From positions 1 through 9,218 of the forward strand of contig MGQK01000026.1 of assembly GCA_001797815.1 (NCBI GenBank): DNA of 9,218 bases, given 5' to 3'. The DNA is from Deltaproteobacteria bacterium RBG_13_61_14 (GTDB taxonomy: Bacteria > RBG-13-61-14). The notes under the pieces were generated by a model. That model was given only the letters and a program-made list of their open reading frames with translations, was not told where the DNA came from and ran no database searches. Positions 851-9,218 of the stretch are shown here, in pieces (position 1 is the stretch's first letter; each line of letters starts with the position of its first letter). The position numbers and the translations under genes were made by a program.

Positions 851-1693
851 TCAGTCCCCGATGGCTTCCAGCAGCTTGATGCTGCGAAGGATCTCATTCT
901 CGATCCCCTTCGTGTCGAGCGCCTGCACCTTGGGGGAGAAGGGTTCGAACGAGATGTTGCCATTGTATCCGAGCCTCATGAGCAGCGCGATCTGATCCCT
1001 GGTTCGGATGCGGTCCGCCGCGCTCAGCATCACCCGAAGATCGTCGGTATAGCGGTCGGGTGAGGTCCGGCTCGTCACCCCGGACGCGTGCACGAGGCCG
1101 GTCAGGGAAACGTCGTACGTTGCTTCGACGTATTCAGCGGGATCCGCTCCCGTGAAGTGGTGGAAGGTGTCATAGACAATACGGTAACACGCTCCCCGTG
1201 ATTCACGAATTGCCGCTGTCGCCTCGCCGAGCGACCGCAGCGAGCAGCTCGACATCCCGATGGGCTCGAGATACCCCATGAGCCCGCTTTCCTCGAAGAA
1301 CGGACGGAACGCTCTCAAAGCGCCGACGGTCTCCCGATGCACCTCGTCACGGCTCCGGCTGTCAGCCTGCGAGTGGGTTGGGCAGAGGATGATCGCCTCA
1401 CACACCACCGAAGCTGCAACGTCCAATAGCTTGCGCAACTCCTCGATGAGGGCAGGTAGGCGCGCTGCGGAGTTGAAGTTTTGCAGAGCATTGATCGTGA
1501 TGATCCTGATGCCCAGCGACCGCGCTAGTGAATTGACCTTTTCGGACGAAAGCCCGCCGAGGGTGCCTCCAACGAGATCGTTGCGTAATTCCACCTTCCG
1601 GATCTCGAGCCGGCCGGCGAGCTCGAAGAACTCCTCGAGCCCCAGTCTCGGAGATACCGATCTGTTCAGCGCAAAACGATCCCGGGCAATCAT
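851..1693 (-). CDS. TIM-barrel sugar isomerase/epimerase, IolI/MocC (2-keto-myo-inositol isomerase) type
   Basis: This 280-residue protein has the AP-endonuclease-2-like TIM barrel shared by xylose isomerases and IolI. The N-terminus (FALNRSVSPRLGLEEFF, then VELRNDL) and the INALQNFN segment at 67-74 are hallmarks of the IolI/MocC inosose isomerase branch. The four metal ligands of B. subtilis IolI (Glu142, Asp174, His200, Glu246) have clear counterparts: Glu143 in LEPIG, Asp175 in YDTFHHF, His202 in LVHASG and Glu250 in SFEPF. A divalent-metal isomerase or epimerase of a keto-cyclitol or keto-sugar is therefore expected. I chose the ATG at 1693, which has GAAAGGAAG about 9 nt upstream; the frame can be extended to a TTG at 1750, but those residues overlap the promoter and look non-coding. 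The gene is divergent from the ABC operon and shares its control region. The family is firm; inosose as the substrate is a family-based guess. Confidence 0.88.
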   Translation of the reverse strand: MIARDRFALNRSVSPRLGLEEFFELAGRLEIRKVELRNDLVGGTLGGLSSEKVNSLARSLGIRIITINALQNFNSAARLPALIEELRKLLDVAASVVCEAIILCPTHSQADSRSRDEVHRETVGALRAFRPFFEESGLMGYLEPIGMSSCSLRSLGEATAAIRESRGACYRIVYDTFHHFTGADPAEYVEATYDVSLTGLVHASGVTSRTSPDRYTDDLRVMLSAADRIRTRDQIALLMRLGYNGNISFEPFSPKVQALDTKGIENEILRSIKLLEAIGD

Positions 1694-1748
1694 AACCCCG
1701 TCTTCCTTTCTGACAAAAGCATAATAGATGAAAGCGACCACACCTTGC

Positions 1749-1766
1749 AATTACCATTTGGTTATT
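1749..1766. promoter_or_regulatory. Imperfect palindrome, candidate operator
   Basis: AATTACCATTTGGTTATT is an 18-bp imperfect palindrome in which seven of nine base pairs match, built from two TGGTWATT half-sites. It overlaps the first three bases of the leftward -10 and the predicted start site, so a bound repressor would block the isomerase promoter. A third half-site lies at 1805-1812. The binding protein is unknown. Confidence 0.45.
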
Positions 1767-1960: not shown

Positions 1961-1984
1961 ATGGATGAAAGGAGAGAAGCATGA
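1961..1984 (+). CDS. Putative 7-codon upstream ORF overlapping the binding-protein start
   Basis: ATG at 1961 opens a 7-codon frame (MDERREA) whose TGA stop at 1982-1984 overlaps the binding-protein ATG at 1981 as ATGA. AGGAG at 1947-1951 lies 9 nt before its ATG. Ribosomes finishing here would be placed on the main start, so it could couple or tune translation. The main gene also has its own strong site, so this may be fortuitous. Confidence 0.3.
   Translation: MDERREA
1970..1974 (+). promoter_or_regulatory. Ribosome binding site of the binding-protein gene
   Basis: AGGAG within AAAGGAGAG sits 6 nt before ATG at 1981. A small hairpin lies just upstream, AGGA at 1947-1950 with TCCT at 1954-1957. 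Confidence 0.8.
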
Positions 1985-3276
1985 AGAAGATCGGCATGAT
2001 GGTTTTCGTCCTCTCGGTATTCGTTTCCTTCGATATTTTCGCCTGGGGAGGGGGCGGCGAAAAGCCGATTACCCTGAACGTGGCCGTTCGAGACTACACG
2101 CTGGACAACGAGCCTCCCTGGAAAACGGGAGCCGCTGCATACCAGAAGCTTCACCCGAACGTCAAGATCGTGTTCGAGGGACTCCCGTACGACGATATGA
2201 GGAACAAGGTCCTCATCGCGGTCGCTGCCGGAAAGGGACCCGACATCGCCTACGTGGACTGCATCTGGCTCGGGGAGTACGCGAGCAACAAGATCATCAT
2301 CCCGGTAACGAAGTACATGAATGCCACGCCGGCGCTGAAGAACGACCTGTATTCGCCATTCCTTGCCGGCGCCACCTGGAAAGGCGAGATCTATGGCCCC
2401 TGGTCGCACACCGACGTCCGCACCCTCGTCTGGAACAAGGACATGTTCAAGGCGGCCGGACTTGATCCCGAGAAGCCGCCGACGACCTGGAGCCAGCTGC
2501 GGGAGTACGCAAAGAAGCTCACTAACCCCTCGAAGGACGTGTGGGGATTCGGGTTCCCTGCGTTCGCCTCCGAAGGATCGCTGGACATGTGGTATCCCTT
2601 CGTCTACCAGGGTGGTAAGGGGATCCTATCGGATGACTTCACGAAGGCGATCTTCAACCAGCCGCACGGCGTAGCCGCGATGCAGCTGTACTACGACCTG
2701 ATGTGGACCGACCATGCGTCGCCGACCGATCTGATCGGCGTGGAGGAGGGCCAGCACACCGACGGCTTCGATGCCGGCAAGTATGCGATGATCATCATGG
2801 CCGGCACCAACAAGACCAATGATGCGTACGCGGACCTGACCCGGCAGCAGTTCGAAGCCAGGGTTGGCGCCGCGCCCTACCCGCTCGCCCCCGGCGGCAA
2901 GGTTGCAACGGGGTCGGGCGGCTGGATCATCGGGATTACACGGGACGCAAAGAATCCCGATGTCGCCTGGGATTTCATCACAAGCGTGCTGAAGACCGAC
3001 AACCTCGTGGACTTCGTCGTGGCCGACGGCGACGAGGCCACCTACAAGTCGGTCGTGGCGAGCCCGAAGTACAAGGAGTACCTCCCGCAATATCCGGTGC
3101 GCTTCGGGCTGATGGATTCAACGCACTTCAGGCCTCCGGTGCCCGAGTACCTGAAGATCGCGGATGCGCTGCTCAACGCGATGCAGAAAGTGCTTACGCA
3201 GAAGGCGAGCGCCCAGGAAGCCCTGAACGAGGCGGCGCTGATTGCCGACTCCCTCCTGGCGCAGCGCAAGTGGTAG
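1981..3276 (+). CDS. Sugar ABC transporter periplasmic substrate-binding protein
   Basis: This 431-residue protein is a family-1 extracellular solute-binding protein (SBP_bac_1, UgpB/MalE-like) that captures a carbohydrate in the periplasm and delivers it to the two permeases encoded next. A signal peptide is clear: MKK, a hydrophobic core at about 4-20, and likely cleavage around residues 21-23 (FAWGGGGEK). There is no lipobox cysteine, so the mature protein should be soluble. Family features follow in order: VKIVFEGLPYDDMRNKV, GKGPDIAYVD, the WKGEIYGPWS and LVWNKDMFKAAGLD segments, PPTTWSQLREYAKKL, and GSGGWIIGITRDAKNPDVAWDFI near the C-terminal lobe. The length is normal for the family. 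ATG at 1981 has a strong AGGAG site. A strong hairpin follows the stop codon and probably keeps this protein in excess over the permeases. The family is certain; the ligand is not predictable from sequence. Confidence 0.95.
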   Translation: MKKIGMMVFVLSVFVSFDIFAWGGGGEKPITLNVAVRDYTLDNEPPWKTGAAAYQKLHPNVKIVFEGLPYDDMRNKVLIAVAAGKGPDIAYVDCIWLGEYASNKIIIPVTKYMNATPALKNDLYSPFLAGATWKGEIYGPWSHTDVRTLVWNKDMFKAAGLDPEKPPTTWSQLREYAKKLTNPSKDVWGFGFPAFASEGSLDMWYPFVYQGGKGILSDDFTKAIFNQPHGVAAMQLYYDLMWTDHASPTDLIGVEEGQHTDGFDAGKYAMIIMAGTNKTNDAYADLTRQQFEARVGAAPYPLAPGGKVATGSGGWIIGITRDAKNPDVAWDFITSVLKTDNLVDFVVADGDEATYKSVVASPKYKEYLPQYPVRFGLMDSTHFRPPVPEYLKIADALLNAMQKVLTQKASAQEALNEAALIADSLLAQRKW

Positions 3277-3298
3277 ACACGCTCTAGGTAGTTCAAAC

Positions 3299-3332
3299 GC
3301 CGGAATCCGGGGCCGTCGCCCCGGATTCCGGC
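3299..3332 (+). other. Perfect 15-bp intercistronic hairpin
   Basis: GCCGGAATCCGGGGC at 3299-3313 and its exact complement at 3318-3332 flank a 4-nt CGTC loop. The stem is very GC-rich but is followed by CATGCAGCC, not a T-tract, so it is not a normal intrinsic terminator. It lies 22 bp after the binding-protein stop and ends 26 bp before the permease start. Such stems are known to protect upstream mRNA and lower downstream expression (as between malE and malF), which would suit the usual excess of binding protein. Confidence 0.8.
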
Positions 3333-3358
3333 CATGCAGCCACGTCGAAGGAATAGTC

Positions 3359-4246
3359 ATGGGAATCGGGCGCAGACCGATGGTGGGCTATCTCTATATC
3401 CTCCCGTTGTTGGTGCTCCTGGGCTTGCTGTCCGTGTACCCGGCCCTCAGCGTGCTGTGGATGAGCCTTCAGAGCATCGAGCTCGCCAACCTCGGTGCCG
3501 CAGAGTTCGCGGGCCTCAAGAACTACCTGCTCCTGCTGAAGTCGACGAGCCCGACGCTCGGCGAGGCCCTCGGGCTCTCGTTCCTGTTCGTCTTCGTCTC
3601 GGTCGTCTTCCACGTCTTCATCGGCTTCTCCCTGGCGAACCTGCTGGCAATCCCCTGGGTGAAGGGAAAGAACGCCTGGCGCAACCTCTACATGATCTCC
3701 TGGGTGGCCGCCGGCATAGTCATCGGCTACACGTTCCGCTTCTTCTTCGAACCGCGTGCCGGCGTCCTGAACTATCTCATGCGGCTGGCGGGGCTGGCTC
3801 CGCGGTCCTGGGCCGCCGATCCGAAGCTCGCGATGCCGGCGATCATCATCGTCAACATCTGGCGCGGCGTCCCCTACAGCCTGATCATCGAGACCGCAGG
3901 ACTGCAAAGCATCAACACTGAGCTCTACGACGCGGCGCGCGTGGACGGTGCGAACGCGTGGCAGATGCTTATGCGCGTCAAGATTCCCATAGTCAAGGAT
4001 TTCCTGCTGCTGGACATCATCCTCGACACCACGGACACCTTTCAGGTCTTCGAGACGATTCTGGCGATCACCGGGGGCGGACCGCTGCACCAGACTGAGA
4101 CGCTGGCCCTGTACATGTACAACCAGGCGTTCCGCTACGGCGACGTCGGCAGGGGATCCGCCATCGGGGTGGTGCTGCTCGCCATCAGCATCGTGTTCGC
4201 GGTGATCTACATCAGGTTCTTCCGGCCGGGGAAGGAGGAGCTGTGA
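3359..4246 (+). CDS. Sugar ABC transporter permease, MalF/UgpA type
   Basis: This 295-residue inner-membrane protein is one half of the transport channel. About six hydrophobic segments are visible, including residues 10-32, 73-98, 110-130, 158-180 and 266-287. The coupling-helix EAA loop, which docks on the ATPase, is YDAARVDGANAWQMLMRVKIP at about 190-210 and fits the family pattern (EAA...DGA...I.P). The segment ITGGGP at 237-242 is also typical of MalF-type permeases. ATG at 3359 was chosen because GAAGGA lies 6 nt upstream and the hydrophobic N-terminus starts there; the frame stays open back into the binding-protein gene, but that part is non-coding. It overlaps the next gene by 4 bp (GTGA), so the two permeases are translationally coupled. 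No soluble ATPase domain is present. Confidence 0.95.
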   Translation: MGIGRRPMVGYLYILPLLVLLGLLSVYPALSVLWMSLQSIELANLGAAEFAGLKNYLLLLKSTSPTLGEALGLSFLFVFVSVVFHVFIGFSLANLLAIPWVKGKNAWRNLYMISWVAAGIVIGYTFRFFFEPRAGVLNYLMRLAGLAPRSWAADPKLAMPAIIIVNIWRGVPYSLIIETAGLQSINTELYDAARVDGANAWQMLMRVKIPIVKDFLLLDIILDTTDTFQVFETILAITGGGPLHQTETLALYMYNQAFRYGDVGRGSAIGVVLLAISIVFAVIYIRFFRPGKEEL

Positions 4247-5103
4247 GGCGCTCCCCGATCCGGCTCCTGCCGGTGAAAACGCTGGTCTACGCGCTGCTTC
4301 TCGTGTGGGCGCTCCTCACGATCCTTCCCTTGTATTGGGTTTTCTCGACGGCGTTCAAGTCGCCGGAGGAGGCCCGAGGATATCCCCCGACGCTCATTCC
4401 CCACTCCTTCAGCTTCCGGAACCTCGTCCAGGTCTTCGACGATCCGCAGACGCACAAGTCGCTGGGGTTCAAGCCCTACCTGAACAGCCTCATCATCGCG
4501 CTCGGCACCGCTCTCCTCACGGCGACGGTGAGCTTCCTGGCCGGTTTTGGATTCGCACGGTACCGCTTCCGGGGCAGGGAGGTGCTCCTTCTTTCGCTCC
4601 TGTTCATCAACATGCTTCCGGAAATGGCGAAGATGATCCCGCTCTTCCGCATGTTCATCCTGTACCATCTCTACGACACCTACCTGGGGCTGATACTCCT
4701 TCTGGCCGCGGGCTCGGCCCCCTTCTCCACCTGGCTCATGCGAGGATACATCAAGAGCATCCCCCAGGACCTCGAGGATTCAGCGGTCATCGACGGGTGC
4801 ACCCGGGGGCAGGCGAGCCGCCGCATCACCGCCCCGCTTGCGGCGCCGGGGCTGGCCGCGGTGGCCGTGCTTGCGTTCCGCGCCGCATGGAACGAGTTCT
4901 CCGCCGCGCTCATCCTCACGACGTCGGACAGCGTCCGACCCTATACCACGGCCATCTTCAAGTACGTGAAGGAGCACGCGAGCGTCGACTGGCACCTGCT
5001 GTCCGCCGCCTCCTTCGTTTCCATCATCCCCATCGTGATCGCCTTCGCGTTTTTCCAGAGGTATTTCGTCGGCGGGCTCACGCGCGGGGCGGTGAAGGAC
5101 TGA
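4243..5103 (+). CDS. Sugar ABC transporter permease, MalG/UgpE type
   Basis: This 286-residue protein is the second channel subunit, partner of the permease encoded just upstream. It has the usual MalG order: TM1 at about 12-36, the FKSPEEA segment, PYLNSLIIALGTAL, the GFGFARYRFRG loop at 101-111, the EAA loop at about 177-202 (LEDSAVIDGCTRGQASRRI) and the family C-terminus QRYFVGGLTRGAVKD. Cys186 replaces the usual Ala/Gly after DG in the EAA loop, a small departure. Translation starts at GTG 4243, whose last two bases share the upstream TGA; AAGGAGGAG at 4232-4240 lies immediately upstream. Its own TGA overlaps the next start (TGATG). The coupled arrangement supports a 1:1 permease heterodimer. 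Confidence 0.95.
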   Translation: MRRSPIRLLPVKTLVYALLLVWALLTILPLYWVFSTAFKSPEEARGYPPTLIPHSFSFRNLVQVFDDPQTHKSLGFKPYLNSLIIALGTALLTATVSFLAGFGFARYRFRGREVLLLSLLFINMLPEMAKMIPLFRMFILYHLYDTYLGLILLLAAGSAPFSTWLMRGYIKSIPQDLEDSAVIDGCTRGQASRRITAPLAAPGLAAVAVLAFRAAWNEFSAALILTTSDSVRPYTTAIFKYVKEHASVDWHLLSAASFVSIIPIVIAFAFFQRYFVGGLTRGAVKD

Positions 5104-5975
5104 TGCACATGGACGTTCTCGTGCTCGGCACCGCGGCGGCGGAGCAGTGGCCGTCGATTTACTGCCGGTGCGACATCTGCTGCCGGGTTCGCCGTGACGG
5201 CGGAAGGGACGTGCGGACACGGTCCTCGCTGCGCATCGGAGAGCGGTATCAGATCGACTTCGGCCCTGACGCGAACTGGCAGATGCATCGCAACGGGATC
5301 GACCTGTTCGATCTCGAGCATCTGTTCATCACCCATACCCACAGCGATCACTTCCAGTTCGAGGAGATCGTGAGCAAGTCGCACGCGATCAGGGCGAACA
5401 GCAAGCCGCTCGCGGTCTACATGAGCGTGCCTGCCGCGGAGTACCTCGAGCGTATCCTGCACACCTTCGACGCGCAGATCGAGGACGAGGAAGATCTCGC
5501 GGCATGGCGCCGACGCTTCCCCGTGCGGGCATTGGAGTACTTCCGTTCCTTCGAGATCGGTGAGCTCGGGGTCACGACGATCAAGGGCAGCCACCTGGCG
5601 GAGGGGATGGACCAATTCTCGATCAACTACCTGATCCGGCTTCCCGACGGCCGATGCCTGCTCTACGCGGTCGACACCGGCTACTACCAGGAGGAAGCGT
5701 GGGAGTACCTGCGGGGGAAGCGGGTGGACATCCTCGTCATGGACTGCACGTTCCCGACGCGCCGCACCGAGCCGCGCTCCTTCGGCCACCACACGCTCGC
5801 GAGCTTCCTCGGAACCCTCGAGCGCATGCGTGAGATCGGCTTCATCGACGGGCGCACGAAGGTGTGCGCCACGCATTTCGACATCCACCAGGCTCTGCCG
5901 CACGGGGAGATGCAGGCGCTGTTCGACGGAAGTGCCGTGCCGGTGACCGTCGCCTACGACGGGCTCGCGCTCTAG
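5103..5975 (+). CDS. PhnP-like metallo-beta-lactamase-fold hydrolase
   Basis: This 290-residue cytoplasmic protein is a binuclear-metal hydrolase resembling PhnP, the phosphodiesterase that opens cyclic ribose phosphate in the C-P lyase pathway. The metal motif THTHSDH supplies His78, His80, Asp82 and His83, and further likely ligands are His164 (KGSH), Asp191 (AVDTG) and His258 (CATH). CRCDIC at 21-26 matches the Cys-X-Cys-X2-Cys structural zinc site of PhnP at the same positions, and ILVMDCTFP matches VMVMDCSHP. No other phn gene is present, so a role in phosphonate use is unlikely; a cyclic or diester sugar phosphate, or a lactone, is more plausible (inference). ATG at 5103 overlaps the permease stop, but AAGGA at 5095-5099 is better spaced for ATG at 5109, which would shorten the protein by two residues. 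The stop codon shares CTAG with the opposing gene. Confidence 0.87.
   Translation: MHMDVLVLGTAAAEQWPSIYCRCDICCRVRRDGGRDVRTRSSLRIGERYQIDFGPDANWQMHRNGIDLFDLEHLFITHTHSDHFQFEEIVSKSHAIRANSKPLAVYMSVPAAEYLERILHTFDAQIEDEEDLAAWRRRFPVRALEYFRSFEIGELGVTTIKGSHLAEGMDQFSINYLIRLPDGRCLLYAVDTGYYQEEAWEYLRGKRVDILVMDCTFPTRRTEPRSFGHHTLASFLGTLERMREIGFIDGRTKVCATHFDIHQALPHGEMQALFDGSAVPVTVAYDGLAL
5972..5975. other. Shared CTAG stop of two convergent operons
   Basis: The palindrome CTAG gives TAG on the plus strand (5973-5975, end of the PhnP-like gene) and TAG on the minus strand (5974-5972, end of the 573-residue protein gene). The two coding regions therefore overlap, and no terminator separates the operons. Confidence 0.9.
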
Positions 5976-7693
5976 CAGGACCTTTCGACACGTTCTCTCC
6001 CGTCGACCCGGGGGATATCGGCGGACCGCCAGCTGATCACGCCCGAGGGACTCTCCCGGATGACCGTGCACGTCGTGGGCATGTCGTTCCTGCCCTCCAC
6101 GTCGATCGAGACGGTTCCGTCGGTCAGCATGACCGCGTCTGGTATCCGTACGCCCGCCCTGGCACGAACGTACCGGCAGGCATGCTCAAGGGTGACGAGC
6201 TGGGGTTGAGAGGAGGCTATTCCTTCGACGACGCCCCGCAGGATCCGCTCCCAGTTCGCCGGCGCGATGTGCTGGAGGTAGTCCGATTCGTGCGTGAAGA
6301 GCGTCGCAGGTATCAGGCTGCCGAGTGACCGTCGAAGCTGGAGCACACCGTTGTGGATCGTTCGTTCGACGTCATTGTCCGGCGCCCACTCATACCCGCA
6401 GACATCGCGGATCTCCACCAAGCAATTGAACAGCCTCCGGCTGATCGCCGGCATCGTTTCCACCTCGAGCGGATGGGCATAGTACATCGGCATCGAAGTC
6501 CGGGCGGGCCCCGTTCCGCTCGAGCGGAACGGTCCTCCCCTGAGCCAGGGTTCGTCATCCGTGTACGGTGCTCCGGGAGCAATGGGGGTGCCGATGAACT
6601 CGCACCCCATTTCAAGGAGGTGGGGCAGGGCGTTCCTGCCGATTTCGTAGTAGTGGCCGATCGCCATGGCGGAGATCTCGATCCCATGCTTCCTATGCCA
6701 CCGGCGGACCCGGTTGACGTTTGCTCGCATGACGGGATCCGGAAAATCAGTACGCTTGTGATGATCGTAGTAGATCCAGCGCTCCGGCTTCGTGGGATCG
6801 ACCTGACACTCGTTTCCGTTGAAGGCGTGGGGGAACGCGGTTGCTCCACCGCTCCGTGTGTACCTCCTCAGGTTGTCGATTGCCTGGTCGCTCATGTTGT
6901 CCAGGAACAAGCCGAGCCACGGCTTCAAGCCGCAGCGGTTGCACGCGCCGACCCAGTGGAATGGATCGCCGCCCAGGCCGCTGCCGCCCGATCCCCAGAC
7001 ATCATCCACCCTCATGGTGACGAAGGGGGGCATGCCCTGCAGAACGCATGGCTTCCTCGACACCCAAACGATTCCCCTCCACACGAGGTCGTCCATGCCG
7101 GCGATGGGTCCTCTCACTGCATGCGACATCCACGAGGCGTCATTCCACAGCACGACCTTCCCGCCGCCTACGGCCCCGACCTCGAGGATCGACGCGTCGC
7201 CCGTGGAAACGAGAACCGAGCCGTGTCGCAGATGGGCTCCCGCACGGATCTCCACGGGCTCGAGGAGATCGATCCGCTCCCGTGGCTCATGGAGCGCCGT
7301 GATGTAATGCGAGTTGTCGACGATCAGGAAATGCCGTGAAGCTACCGAAAGCCGCCGTGCAGGCACGATCACATCTGCGAACACACCCGACCACGTCATG
7401 AGGGTAGGGTCGAAGCAGATCAGGCCGGCGCCCTTGACTACCTCCCCCGCGATCAGATGCATGAAGCCGGCGTCTCCGATGCCGGCGAGGAGTGACGCGT
7501 GGCCGACGAGGTAGACGCCGTGTCCGACCACCGTGCCGGGATCGGGAGGCGCGCCGATGTCGATCTCAATGTAAGGAAAGCCGAAGTGGTCGAGGTAAGG
7601 CTGCACACGCCGGACGTATTCGTTGAAAAACTCGGAGCGGGAGTTCAGGAGCACTCCCATCCGGCGCGATGGTCGGTCGACTCCGGGCCTCAT
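5972..7693 (-). CDS. Uncharacterised 573-residue protein: GATase-like N-terminal region plus NodB-deacetylase-like region
   Basis: I cannot name this family. The N-terminal part (about 12-215) looks like an alpha/beta flavodoxin- or GATase-like domain: strand MGVLLNS, then VYLVGHASLL, AGLICFDPTL and GKVVLWNDASW, without an evident catalytic Cys. The middle (about 222-475) recalls NodB polysaccharide deacetylases or related TIM-like amidohydrolases: PFVTMRVDDVWG with Asp230/Asp231, ATAFPHAF with His289, YYDHH at 308-312, AIGHYYEIGRN at 344-354 and LFTHESDYLQH with His468. Such paired Asp and spaced His residues could bind a metal. A short beta-rich tail follows (about 515-560). There is no signal peptide or membrane segment, so it should act in the cytoplasm. 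Its ATG overlaps the GH4 stop (ATGA), so the two are translationally coupled and probably act on the same sugar. Met12 is an alternative start with no ribosome binding site. A deacetylase or esterase role is inference. Confidence 0.85.
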   Translation of the reverse strand: MRPGVDRPSRRMGVLLNSRSEFFNEYVRRVQPYLDHFGFPYIEIDIGAPPDPGTVVGHGVYLVGHASLLAGIGDAGFMHLIAGEVVKGAGLICFDPTLMTWSGVFADVIVPARRLSVASRHFLIVDNSHYITALHEPRERIDLLEPVEIRAGAHLRHGSVLVSTGDASILEVGAVGGGKVVLWNDASWMSHAVRGPIAGMDDLVWRGIVWVSRKPCVLQGMPPFVTMRVDDVWGSGGSGLGGDPFHWVGACNRCGLKPWLGLFLDNMSDQAIDNLRRYTRSGGATAFPHAFNGNECQVDPTKPERWIYYDHHKRTDFPDPVMRANVNRVRRWHRKHGIEISAMAIGHYYEIGRNALPHLLEMGCEFIGTPIAPGAPYTDDEPWLRGGPFRSSGTGPARTSMPMYYAHPLEVETMPAISRRLFNCLVEIRDVCGYEWAPDNDVERTIHNGVLQLRRSLGSLIPATLFTHESDYLQHIAPANWERILRGVVEGIASSQPQLVTLEHACRYVRARAGVRIPDAVMLTDGTVSIDVEGRNDMPTTCTVIRESPSGVISWRSADIPRVDGRERVERSC

Positions 7694-9030
7694 GCGCCGA
7701 AGTGCTTCCGCATCTCAACGTGGAATGGGAGGGCGAGGATCTCGGAACAGAGCTCATCCGCCTGCTCAACGCTGCGGGTCCAGGGATCCATGAGGAGCAT
7801 GTCGACGAGGTATTCCCTCCGTCCGGTCCGGAATGCGGCAAGTTCGAGCTCGACCGGTGCGATGCGATCGCGCGCCAGAAAGGCGAGGACCGGCGCGGGA
7901 AGCTTCCGCGTCGCATGCCCGTGGATACCCCTGGCGTTCACGGTCGCGGGCACCTCGACCTCGAAGTCCCGCGGGACCCCTTCGACGAATCCGCCCGAGT
8001 TCGGAATGTTCACGATCACGGTCCGCTCCACGCCGCAGGCGAGGGCCTCGATGAGGGGTATCATCGGTTCGCCGGAGGTTCCCGGAAGGGCGTCTGAAAT
8101 CCTGACGGAAGGATCGGTGGCGGCGCGATGTATCCCCGAAAGGTTCGCGCGGCCATCGACGATGTACTGGTCGAACCAGCCCGCCGGGTCTTCCCTCCAC
8201 TTGCGCTCGGTGTCGCGGTCCATGTGGTACCAGTAGCCCCAGCTTCCGCCACCCGGGCTGCCCGTGTCGCCGATCGGGAAGACGCCGAACCGCCGGTAGA
8301 GATCGATCGCTTTCGGGCCCATGGGGTGGCAGGGGGGACACGAACGGAAGTACTCCTCGGATTTTTCCTCGATCCATCGATCGAGCAGCGGGAAGACATC
8401 CCTACCGTCGCATGCGAAGCGATTCGACCAGACGAAGTGGTTGACGCCGGGGATCTCGAAGGAGAGCTTCTCGGGGTCGAGACCGAGGACGCTGGCGACA
8501 TCATAGATCCCATGGTAGCCGTGGCACATGCCGACCACTTTCACTCCCCGGTACGTGCGCGAGAGATATGTGGTTCCGGCGAGCACGGGATTGGCCACGA
8601 GCACGAGCCAAGCGTTCGGACAGATGTCGATCATGTCCTGCACGATCGACTCCATCAGGTTGAGCTGGTGGAAGTTGATCCAGAAGGCCTCGTCATGCAT
8701 CACGTGCAGGCTGCCGCCGAACCGGTAGCCCAGCCGATGGGCGATGTCCCATCCTTTCCGCCACTGGTCGTAGTTGGCGACCATGGCGGTGTCGATCACG
8801 AAGTCGGCCCCTTGCAGGGAGTGCCTTCTGTCGAGCGTCGCCTCGATCCTCAGCCTGCTTCCGGACTCCTGCAGGAAGCGGGCGAACAGTCGGTGAACGT
8901 CATCGAGTCGTTCGGCATCGATGTCCATCAGGCAGACGACGCTGTCGGCGAGCCCCGGCGTTCTGCAGAGGTCTTGTACGAGCCGCAGCGAGAAGACGGC
9001 GCTTCCCGCGCCGATGATGCTGATCTTCAC
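7690..9030 (-). CDS. Glycoside hydrolase family 4 enzyme (NAD- and Mn-dependent glycosidase)
   Basis: This 446-residue cytoplasmic protein is a GH4 glycosidase. GH4 enzymes oxidise the C3 hydroxyl with NAD, eliminate the aglycone and add water. Visible features are the dinucleotide-binding start MKISIIGAGSAVFS, the acidic MDIDAERL that ends the second strand, LVANPV at 144-149, Cys169 in GMCHGYHG and His198 in PGVNHF. Cys169 and His198 are the expected Mn ligands. The usual length is about 430-480. The stretch IGDTGSPGGGSWGYWYH replaces the region that carries the catalytic Tyr in classical 6-phospho-glucosidases, placing this in a divergent branch perhaps nearer alpha-galacturonidase-type members. 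I used the GTG at 9030, 6 nt after GAGGAG. The stop overlaps the next ATG. The family is confident; sugar, anomer and phosphorylation state are open. Confidence 0.93.
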   Translation of the reverse strand: MKISIIGAGSAVFSLRLVQDLCRTPGLADSVVCLMDIDAERLDDVHRLFARFLQESGSRLRIEATLDRRHSLQGADFVIDTAMVANYDQWRKGWDIAHRLGYRFGGSLHVMHDEAFWINFHQLNLMESIVQDMIDICPNAWLVLVANPVLAGTTYLSRTYRGVKVVGMCHGYHGIYDVASVLGLDPEKLSFEIPGVNHFVWSNRFACDGRDVFPLLDRWIEEKSEEYFRSCPPCHPMGPKAIDLYRRFGVFPIGDTGSPGGGSWGYWYHMDRDTERKWREDPAGWFDQYIVDGRANLSGIHRAATDPSVRISDALPGTSGEPMIPLIEALACGVERTVIVNIPNSGGFVEGVPRDFEVEVPATVNARGIHGHATRKLPAPVLAFLARDRIAPVELELAAFRTGRREYLVDMLLMDPWTRSVEQADELCSEILALPFHVEMRKHFGA

Positions 9031-9125: not shown

Positions 9126-9218
9126 TCAGGCGGCTCGTGCGGCGCGGATGAAGCGATCGGCGGCCGCGCGCAGTTCCTCGTCGCCCGAGAGCACGTTGAT
9201 GCCGAAGCCGGCACCCAG
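9126..9218 (-). CDS. C-terminal fragment of an unidentified gene
   Basis: The last 30 codons of a leftward gene enter from the window edge and end in TGA at 9128-9126, 95 bp before the GH4 start. The visible end reads LGAGFGINVLSGDEEL followed by an Ala/Arg-rich helix. The shape (Gly-rich strand, an S-x-D turn, then a terminal helix) recalls the C-terminus of HpcH/HpaI-type 2-keto-acid aldolases, but 30 residues are too few to assign it. Same strand and short spacing suggest it is in the GH4 operon. No family is claimed. Confidence 0.5.
   Translation of the reverse strand: MGAGFGINVLSGDEELRAAADRFIRAARAA

Follow-up and report, generated by a model that had tools for sequence, protein, structure and literature searches.

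Introduction

The closest described systems are carbohydrate deacetylases. In Agd3, NDST1 and PelADA, an Asp acts as base, an Asp-His-His triad binds the metal and a His acts as acid (PMC7229062, PMC10864358, PMC13254593). In Agd3, the galactosaminogalactan deacetylase of Aspergillus fumigatus (CE18 with a CBM87; 6nwz), D377 serves as base, D378, H510 and H514 as metal ligands, and H668 as acid (PMC7229062). In the heparan sulfate N-deacetylase NDST1 (8ccy), these parts are played by D319, by D320, H389 and H393, and by H529, respectively (PMC10864358). For PelA (CE21; 9cgy), where the metal ligands D530, H600 and H604 again include an HxxxH motif, the residue proposed to activate the base is H526, located two residues before it (PMC12022489). 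As for ChbG, the base is D10, the metal ligands are D11, H61 and H125, the histidines not being adjacent in the HxxxH manner, and the acid is H206; this enzyme takes diacetylchitobiose-6-phosphate as its substrate, and what it produces is then used by ChbF (PMC9402603).

The window considered here, i.e., the whole stretch of DNA that was analysed, corresponds to a complete contig of 9218 bases from a genome whose phylum counts only three genomes in the collection searched. It encodes a three-domain protein of 573 residues next to a GH4 glycosidase. With a probability of about 0.6, we consider this protein to be a sugar deacylase that belongs to the NodB superfold, requires a metal, works in the cytosol together with the GH4 enzyme and is built on the plan of Agd3, NDST1 and PelA.

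The Locus and Its Genes

The gene of the three-domain protein lies on the minus strand (5972..7693; start codon at 7693-7691, stop codon at 5974-5972). As already reported in the preliminary description of this DNA, its start overlaps the stop codon of the GH4 gene in an ATGA (7693-7690); both Met1, placed in this overlap, and Met12 are possible starts. From its homologous loci and its conserved motif residues, this reading frame is judged to be a real gene and not a chance one. Directly upstream on the same strand, the GH4 gene (7690..9030; 446 aa) begins with a GTG codon preceded by a Shine-Dalgarno-like GAGGAG; its product matches Pfam PF02056 (5e-39) and PF11975 (3e-31), and its nearest solved structure is AglA of T. 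maritima (1obb, 9e-97), the 3u95 and 1vjt enzymes being also among the nearest ones. Upstream of GH4, a partial minus-strand reading frame of some 30 residues (9127-9218, ending in ...RFIRAARAA*) runs into the contig edge, so that, if these genes form an operon, its first part is not contained in the contig.

On the other side, a plus-strand sugar ABC importer (1981..5103) comprises a solute-binding protein (1981-3276; SBP_bac_1, 5.5e-40) and two permeases, contained within 3242-4246 and 4243-5103 (BPD_transp_1, 2e-10 and 5.5e-20, respectively). It is followed on the plus strand by a gene for a metallo-beta-lactamase-fold hydrolase related to PhnP and RNase Z (5103..5975), which meets the gene of the 573-residue protein tail to tail, the two stop codons overlapping in the palindrome CTAG (5972-5975). 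A xylose-isomerase-like TIM barrel of the sugar isomerase/epimerase type is encoded on the minus strand at 851..1750 (AP_endonuc_2, 2.3e-16).

The first 57 residues of the 573-residue protein contain no hydrophobic N-terminal stretch, since the hydropathy over 12 residues peaks at 0.85 there, where relatives clearly endowed with a signal-like stretch reach 2.4-2.8. The earlier view that a signal peptide is lacking is thus supported, and the protein would act in the cytosol.

Distribution of the Family

Taken alone, the protein matched nothing in Pfam, NCBIfam or the PDB sequences, and neither its comparison with plasmids and viral contigs nor an initial genome scan was of use. Three full-length relatives were obtained from a search of 386 genomes, and an alignment of these with the 573-residue protein led to 19 loci; by phmmer, 22 distinct homologous loci were recovered with E-values from 1e-26 to 1e-79. 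Further members came from surveys of the Acidobacteriota, the Planctomycetota, one class of Thermoproteota and the Paenibacillaceae, where the family proved sparse (6/247, 3/294, 2/81 and 5/104 genomes in those four surveys). Altogether, some 30 homologues are distributed among the Omnitrophota, Acidobacteriota, Planctomycetota, Latescibacterota, Paenibacillaceae and Thermoproteota, i.e., a wide range of at least six phyla including both bacteria and archaea.

The family tree is divided into two clades, where the 573-residue protein groups with secreted members from the Acidobacteriota, its long branch leaving the exact placement uncertain. A signal-like hydrophobic N-terminus is present in the members from six loci (L042-L045, L030 and L024) but not in the 573-residue protein. 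One of these, a secreted and very divergent member of 1404 residues with BACON repeats (L045:2283-6497, minus strand), adjoins genes which read as Wzz-like, outer-membrane export-like and glycosyltransferase genes, a context suggesting that some family members have a role linked to exopolysaccharides. Two family copies occur in one locus in two instances (L022 and L066, the copies of the latter belonging to different clades) and on separate contigs of one genome in another (L042 and L043). On a 6-kb contig labelled Vermiphilus sp. (L013, DYKC01000064.1), the family gene has hisB- and xerD-type neighbours shared with three Omnitrophota loci (L007, L012 and L014) and its product clusters with theirs in the tree; this contig is probably misbinned or transferred.

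Conserved Residues and the Missing HxxxH Motif

The motif TMRVDDVWG and the residues His289 and His468, pointed out from the sequence beforehand, are found in their places. Conservation was counted over 31 family sequences, except for H468 and position 469 where 30 sequences were considered. D231 and H289 are invariant (31/31), as is H468 (30/30); D230 is replaced only by N in L020 (30/31), R228 is equally conserved (30/31), H347 is present in 29/31, with Q and D in the two others, E350 in 27/31, and position 469 is E or D in 30/30. The residues D231, H289, H347 and H468 follow one another at spacings of 58, 58 and 121 residues. Asp230, Asp231, His289 and His468 are among the most conserved residues of the barrel; the preliminary description had proposed that they be conserved and would have given way had homologues lacked them, and it stands on this point, none of the outcomes named there as refuting having come about.

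The HxxxH motif, on the contrary, is absent from 31/31 sequences, the position four residues after His289 never being His and being D or E in 20/31. The metal site is therefore not of the standard type and is probably an altered one. Loss of this motif could also mean that catalysis was lost, the protein being then an inactive or regulatory relative, i.e., a sugar-binding pseudoenzyme, and CE4 pseudoenzymes do exist (6hm9 and 6hpa are among the structure matches). Such a fate appears very improbable, considering that practically every member, from archaea to Acidobacteria, retains the base, the metal Asp, the His of motif 2 and the acid His, which is unexpected for a dead site, and that ChbG is active without adjacent histidines (PMC9402603).

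Predicted Fold and Domain Organisation

The AlphaFold2 model of the whole protein, built from an alignment of 19 rows, has a mean pLDDT of 76.7 and a pTM of 0.83 and is unreliable at residues 380-438; the model of the central domain, from 30 rows, reaches a pLDDT of 87.9 and a pTM of 0.90. Three domains can be discriminated, in agreement with those anticipated from the sequence, namely (i) a ThuA/GATase1-like N-terminal domain (residues ~10-214; 7052..7666, minus strand), which VIA structure alignment matches to 3soz, 2gk3, 3rht and 1t0b over model residues 8-214 (Z 15-17), and of which the Pfam family ThuA (PF06283) is matched by one of 19 homologues (1.6e-7), (ii) a NodB-type (beta/alpha)7 deacetylase domain (residues 214-515; 6149..7054, minus strand) carrying R228, D230, D231, H289, H347, H468 and E469, with CE4-type deacetylases as best matches, and (iii) a C-terminal beta-rich tail (residues 515-573; 5975..6151, minus strand), modelled as five strands between 515 and 571.

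With the whole model, Foldseek ranks PelA (1e-9) and NDST1 (7e-8) first, and VIA aligns 468 residues, over 5-573, with Agd3 6nwz (Z 14.9, rmsd 5.9). With the central domain, VIA gives Z 16.4 to the insect chitin deacetylase 5z34 (244 residues, rmsd 3.6), 16.0 to NDST1, 14.2 to PelA and 13.6 to Agd3. In a viral structure library, the one clear match was a NodB-domain protein of a haloarchaeal virus.

The resemblance to Agd3 extends to the order of the alpha/beta/alpha domain, the (beta/alpha)7 deacetylase domain and the beta-rich tail, as well as to the Asp-Asp pair of base and metal ligand and the acid His. Agd3 differs by its HxxxH metal histidines, by a base-coordinating Arg located downstream (R613), where the conserved Arg in the family of the 573-residue protein precedes the base by two residues, and by being secreted and acting on a polymer; sequence identity is only ~10-11%. 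NDST1 likewise combines a Rossmann-like N-terminal domain with the barrel and has its D319/D320 pair and acid H529, but its H389 and H393 form HxxxH, a sulfotransferase domain takes the place of the short beta tail and it is a Golgi enzyme. PelA, the top Foldseek match, has H526 where R228 stands here, two residues before the base (PMC12022489), and the three-domain plan is shared with the Bacillus PelADA (CE26/CBM114; PMC13254593). Both Pel enzymes differ by their HxxxH, by working outside the cytoplasm on a GalNAc polymer and by belonging to pel operons, genes of this kind being absent here. Since Agd3, NDST1, PelA and PelADA all exhibit the three-part plan, the initial claim that no characterised family has this architecture fails; the NodB-like assignment of the centre stands.

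The same superfold also comprises GH57 and GH38 glycosidases and allantoinase, all found among the central-domain matches, and with GH57 enzymes scoring Z 13-14 the fold by itself leaves the reaction undecided. The barrel could then be a GH57/GH38-like glycosidase or transglycosidase, the pair acting as two glycosidases in turn. Besides the GH57 and alpha-mannosidase matches (Foldseek 2e-3, VIA Z ~13-14), glycosidase-like genes near some homologues (DUF4838 in L024, GH42M-type in L022) would fit such a role. It is nonetheless improbable. GH57 enzymes use a Glu as nucleophile and an Asp as acid; here, the only near-invariant Glu residues (E350 and E469) are replaced in several homologues, and the invariant Asp-Asp, His and His are located at the ends of the strands, in the metal-binding place of NodB enzymes. 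The best structural matches, moreover, are deacetylases, and one homologue exceeds a Pfam deacetylase cut-off.

Relation to Established Families

That homologue is archaeal, with 25.9 bits against a Polysacc_deac_1 cut-off of 23.1, and is the only one of 30 family members to match. The 573-residue protein itself does not match PF01522 (CE4), but comparison of the family profile with that of CE4 gives a collinear alignment with P 1.6e-4, where RVDD stands opposite TFDD, PHAF close to motif 2 and GHYYE opposite motif 3. As controls, three unrelated families gave P 0.09-0.54 against the family profile, and the lowest value for an unrelated pair of any kind was 0.012. Together with the Asp-Asp, His and His set, the Pfam match and the CE4 comparison hint at a deacetylase. 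Relative to CE4 (NodB), the barrel, motif 1 and acid His are alike and the profile similarity is weak, but the HxxxH of motif 2 is missing, the RxPY of motif 3 is replaced by a conserved HxxE, and the 573-residue protein stays below the Pfam cut-off.

As for CE18, the three-domain plan is present, the CM2 HxxxH is absent and Agd3 6nwz gave no sequence or profile match in PDB searches at E up to 10. As for CE21, HxxxH is again absent, and neither the hydrolase domain nor pel genes occur in the window. ChbG/YdjC has a metal triad of one Asp with two non-adjacent His, in the order D-D...H...H...H, an arrangement proposed also for the 573-residue protein, where D231, H289 and H347 would fit it by order and conservation. 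It is however of ~250 aa, lacks the ThuA-like N-terminal domain and has no detectable sequence relation: YdjC PF04794 is not matched and hhalign gives P 0.23, a value that says little since the YdjC-CE4 positive control hardly rose above the rest either (P 0.02). YdjC structures are absent from the best 50 rows of each VIA list, though they may match further down. On the features considered, membership of CE4, CE18, CE21 and YdjC fails. DUF2194 (PF09960) was rejected as parent family, with no match to the 573-residue protein, E 0.03 for one homologue and an insignificant hhalign comparison with a member. This family may be that of the CE26 deacetylase PelADA; in one locus (L050:1447-4574, minus strand), a DUF2194 protein (PF09960, 594 bits) with a weak Polysacc_deac_1 match is encoded directly after a PelG gene (PF16933, 8e-63).

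The family of the 573-residue protein is best called an unnamed one, respective to Pfam and NCBIfam, with an Agd3-like plan and a changed metal motif. Its novelty is the want of a family name and of HxxxH, the architecture itself being already known.

Gene Neighbourhood and the Possible GH4 Partner

The idea of a joint function with GH4 is only partly sustained. Besides the ATGA overlap, it is favoured by an archaeal locus (L029) where a GH4 gene lies ~117 bases from the family gene, in convergent orientation. The GH4 enzymes of the window and of L029 are 56% identical, compared with 47% for the best in the other 385 genomes searched, and the L029 family protein belongs to the other clade. As L029 was retrieved for its family protein and not for its GH4, this counts as an independent recurrence, though a single one. 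On the other hand, GH4 adjoins the family gene in only these two of the loci examined, and a search from the GH4 side found close GH4s in 8 other genomes, none of them among the family-carrying genomes of the 386-genome search. A general partnership between the family and GH4 is rejected, close relatives of the GH4 occurring elsewhere without a family neighbour.

Commoner than GH4 near homologues are Gfo/Idh oxidoreductases (10 loci), SIS proteins (6) and DegT aminotransferases (5), M20 deacylases being found in 4 loci; many of these loci are from closely related Omnitrophota, so that the counts do not represent independent events. In six loci, namely L015, L016, L020 and relatives, a SIS-domain isomerase gene stops where the family gene begins, and the latter is in several cases followed by a Gfo/Idh gene, thus forming a conserved small sugar operon. 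These recurrent neighbours point to sugar, perhaps aminosugar, metabolism.

They also bear on a further explanation, where the protein would be an amide or ester hydrolase acting on a small molecule other than a carbohydrate, of the allantoinase/PuuE or lactam-utilisation LamB type, and its overlap with GH4 would be incidental. PuuE and LamB do appear in the fold lists, most homologues have no adjacent GH4, M20 deacylases are encoded near four members and a gene read as N-acyl-D-amino-acid-deacylase-like near one. The sugar-type neighbours recur, however, polysaccharide deacetylases have this same three-domain plan, and some secreted members with BACON or other extra domains, one of them beside exopolysaccharide-like genes, suggest polymers as substrates; this explanation is considered unlikely, if less so than a glycosidase.

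Proposed Function and Mechanism

From its Agd3/NDST1/PelA-like build and the adjacency of GH4, here and in one archaeon, the protein probably deacylates sugars within the cell. In the mechanism we infer, from metal binding and the parts of the single residues to deacylation, its substrate and the succession of the steps, the N-terminal ThuA-like domain is probably a sugar-binding platform. Asp230 would act as general base and owe its activation to Arg228, whose part could be like that proposed for PelA H526. Asp231 and His289 would be metal ligands, with His347, which aligns with CE4 motif 3, as likely third ligand, i.e., the second metal histidine, as in ChbG; the Asp or Glu common four residues after His289 is an alternative candidate. 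His468 would serve as general acid, helped by Glu469.

The substrate would be a sugar taken up by the adjacent ABC importer, from which an acetyl or other acyl group would be taken off, either ahead of or following cleavage of the glycosidic bond by the NAD-dependent GH4 enzyme. ChbF is also a GH4 enzyme. By analogy, ChbG prepares the substrate of ChbF, and the proposal resembles that system in that an imported sugar, a disaccharide in the case of ChbG, would be deacylated in concert with a glycosidase.

More tentatively, and on balance not expected to hold in full, the family could be a new carbohydrate esterase family of bacteria and archaea, combining the Agd3/NDST1 plan with a ChbG-like metal site. 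Its cytosolic members would deacylate an imported aminosugar glycoside as dedicated partners of GH4, some relatives would act in Gfo/Idh-SIS-DegT aminosugar pathways and others would be secreted polymer deacetylases.

Significance

The family extends over six phyla or more, in Bacteria as well as Archaea, with no Pfam or NCBIfam entry matched by its members as a whole. Should the 573-residue protein prove to be a deacylase, the large polysaccharide deacetylases, i.e., Agd3, NDST1 and PelA, would be connected through it to intracellular small-sugar metabolism. The HxxxH metal motif would then be dispensable in the architecture of these enzymes, and a second pairing of a deacetylase with GH4 would stand beside that of ChbG with ChbF.
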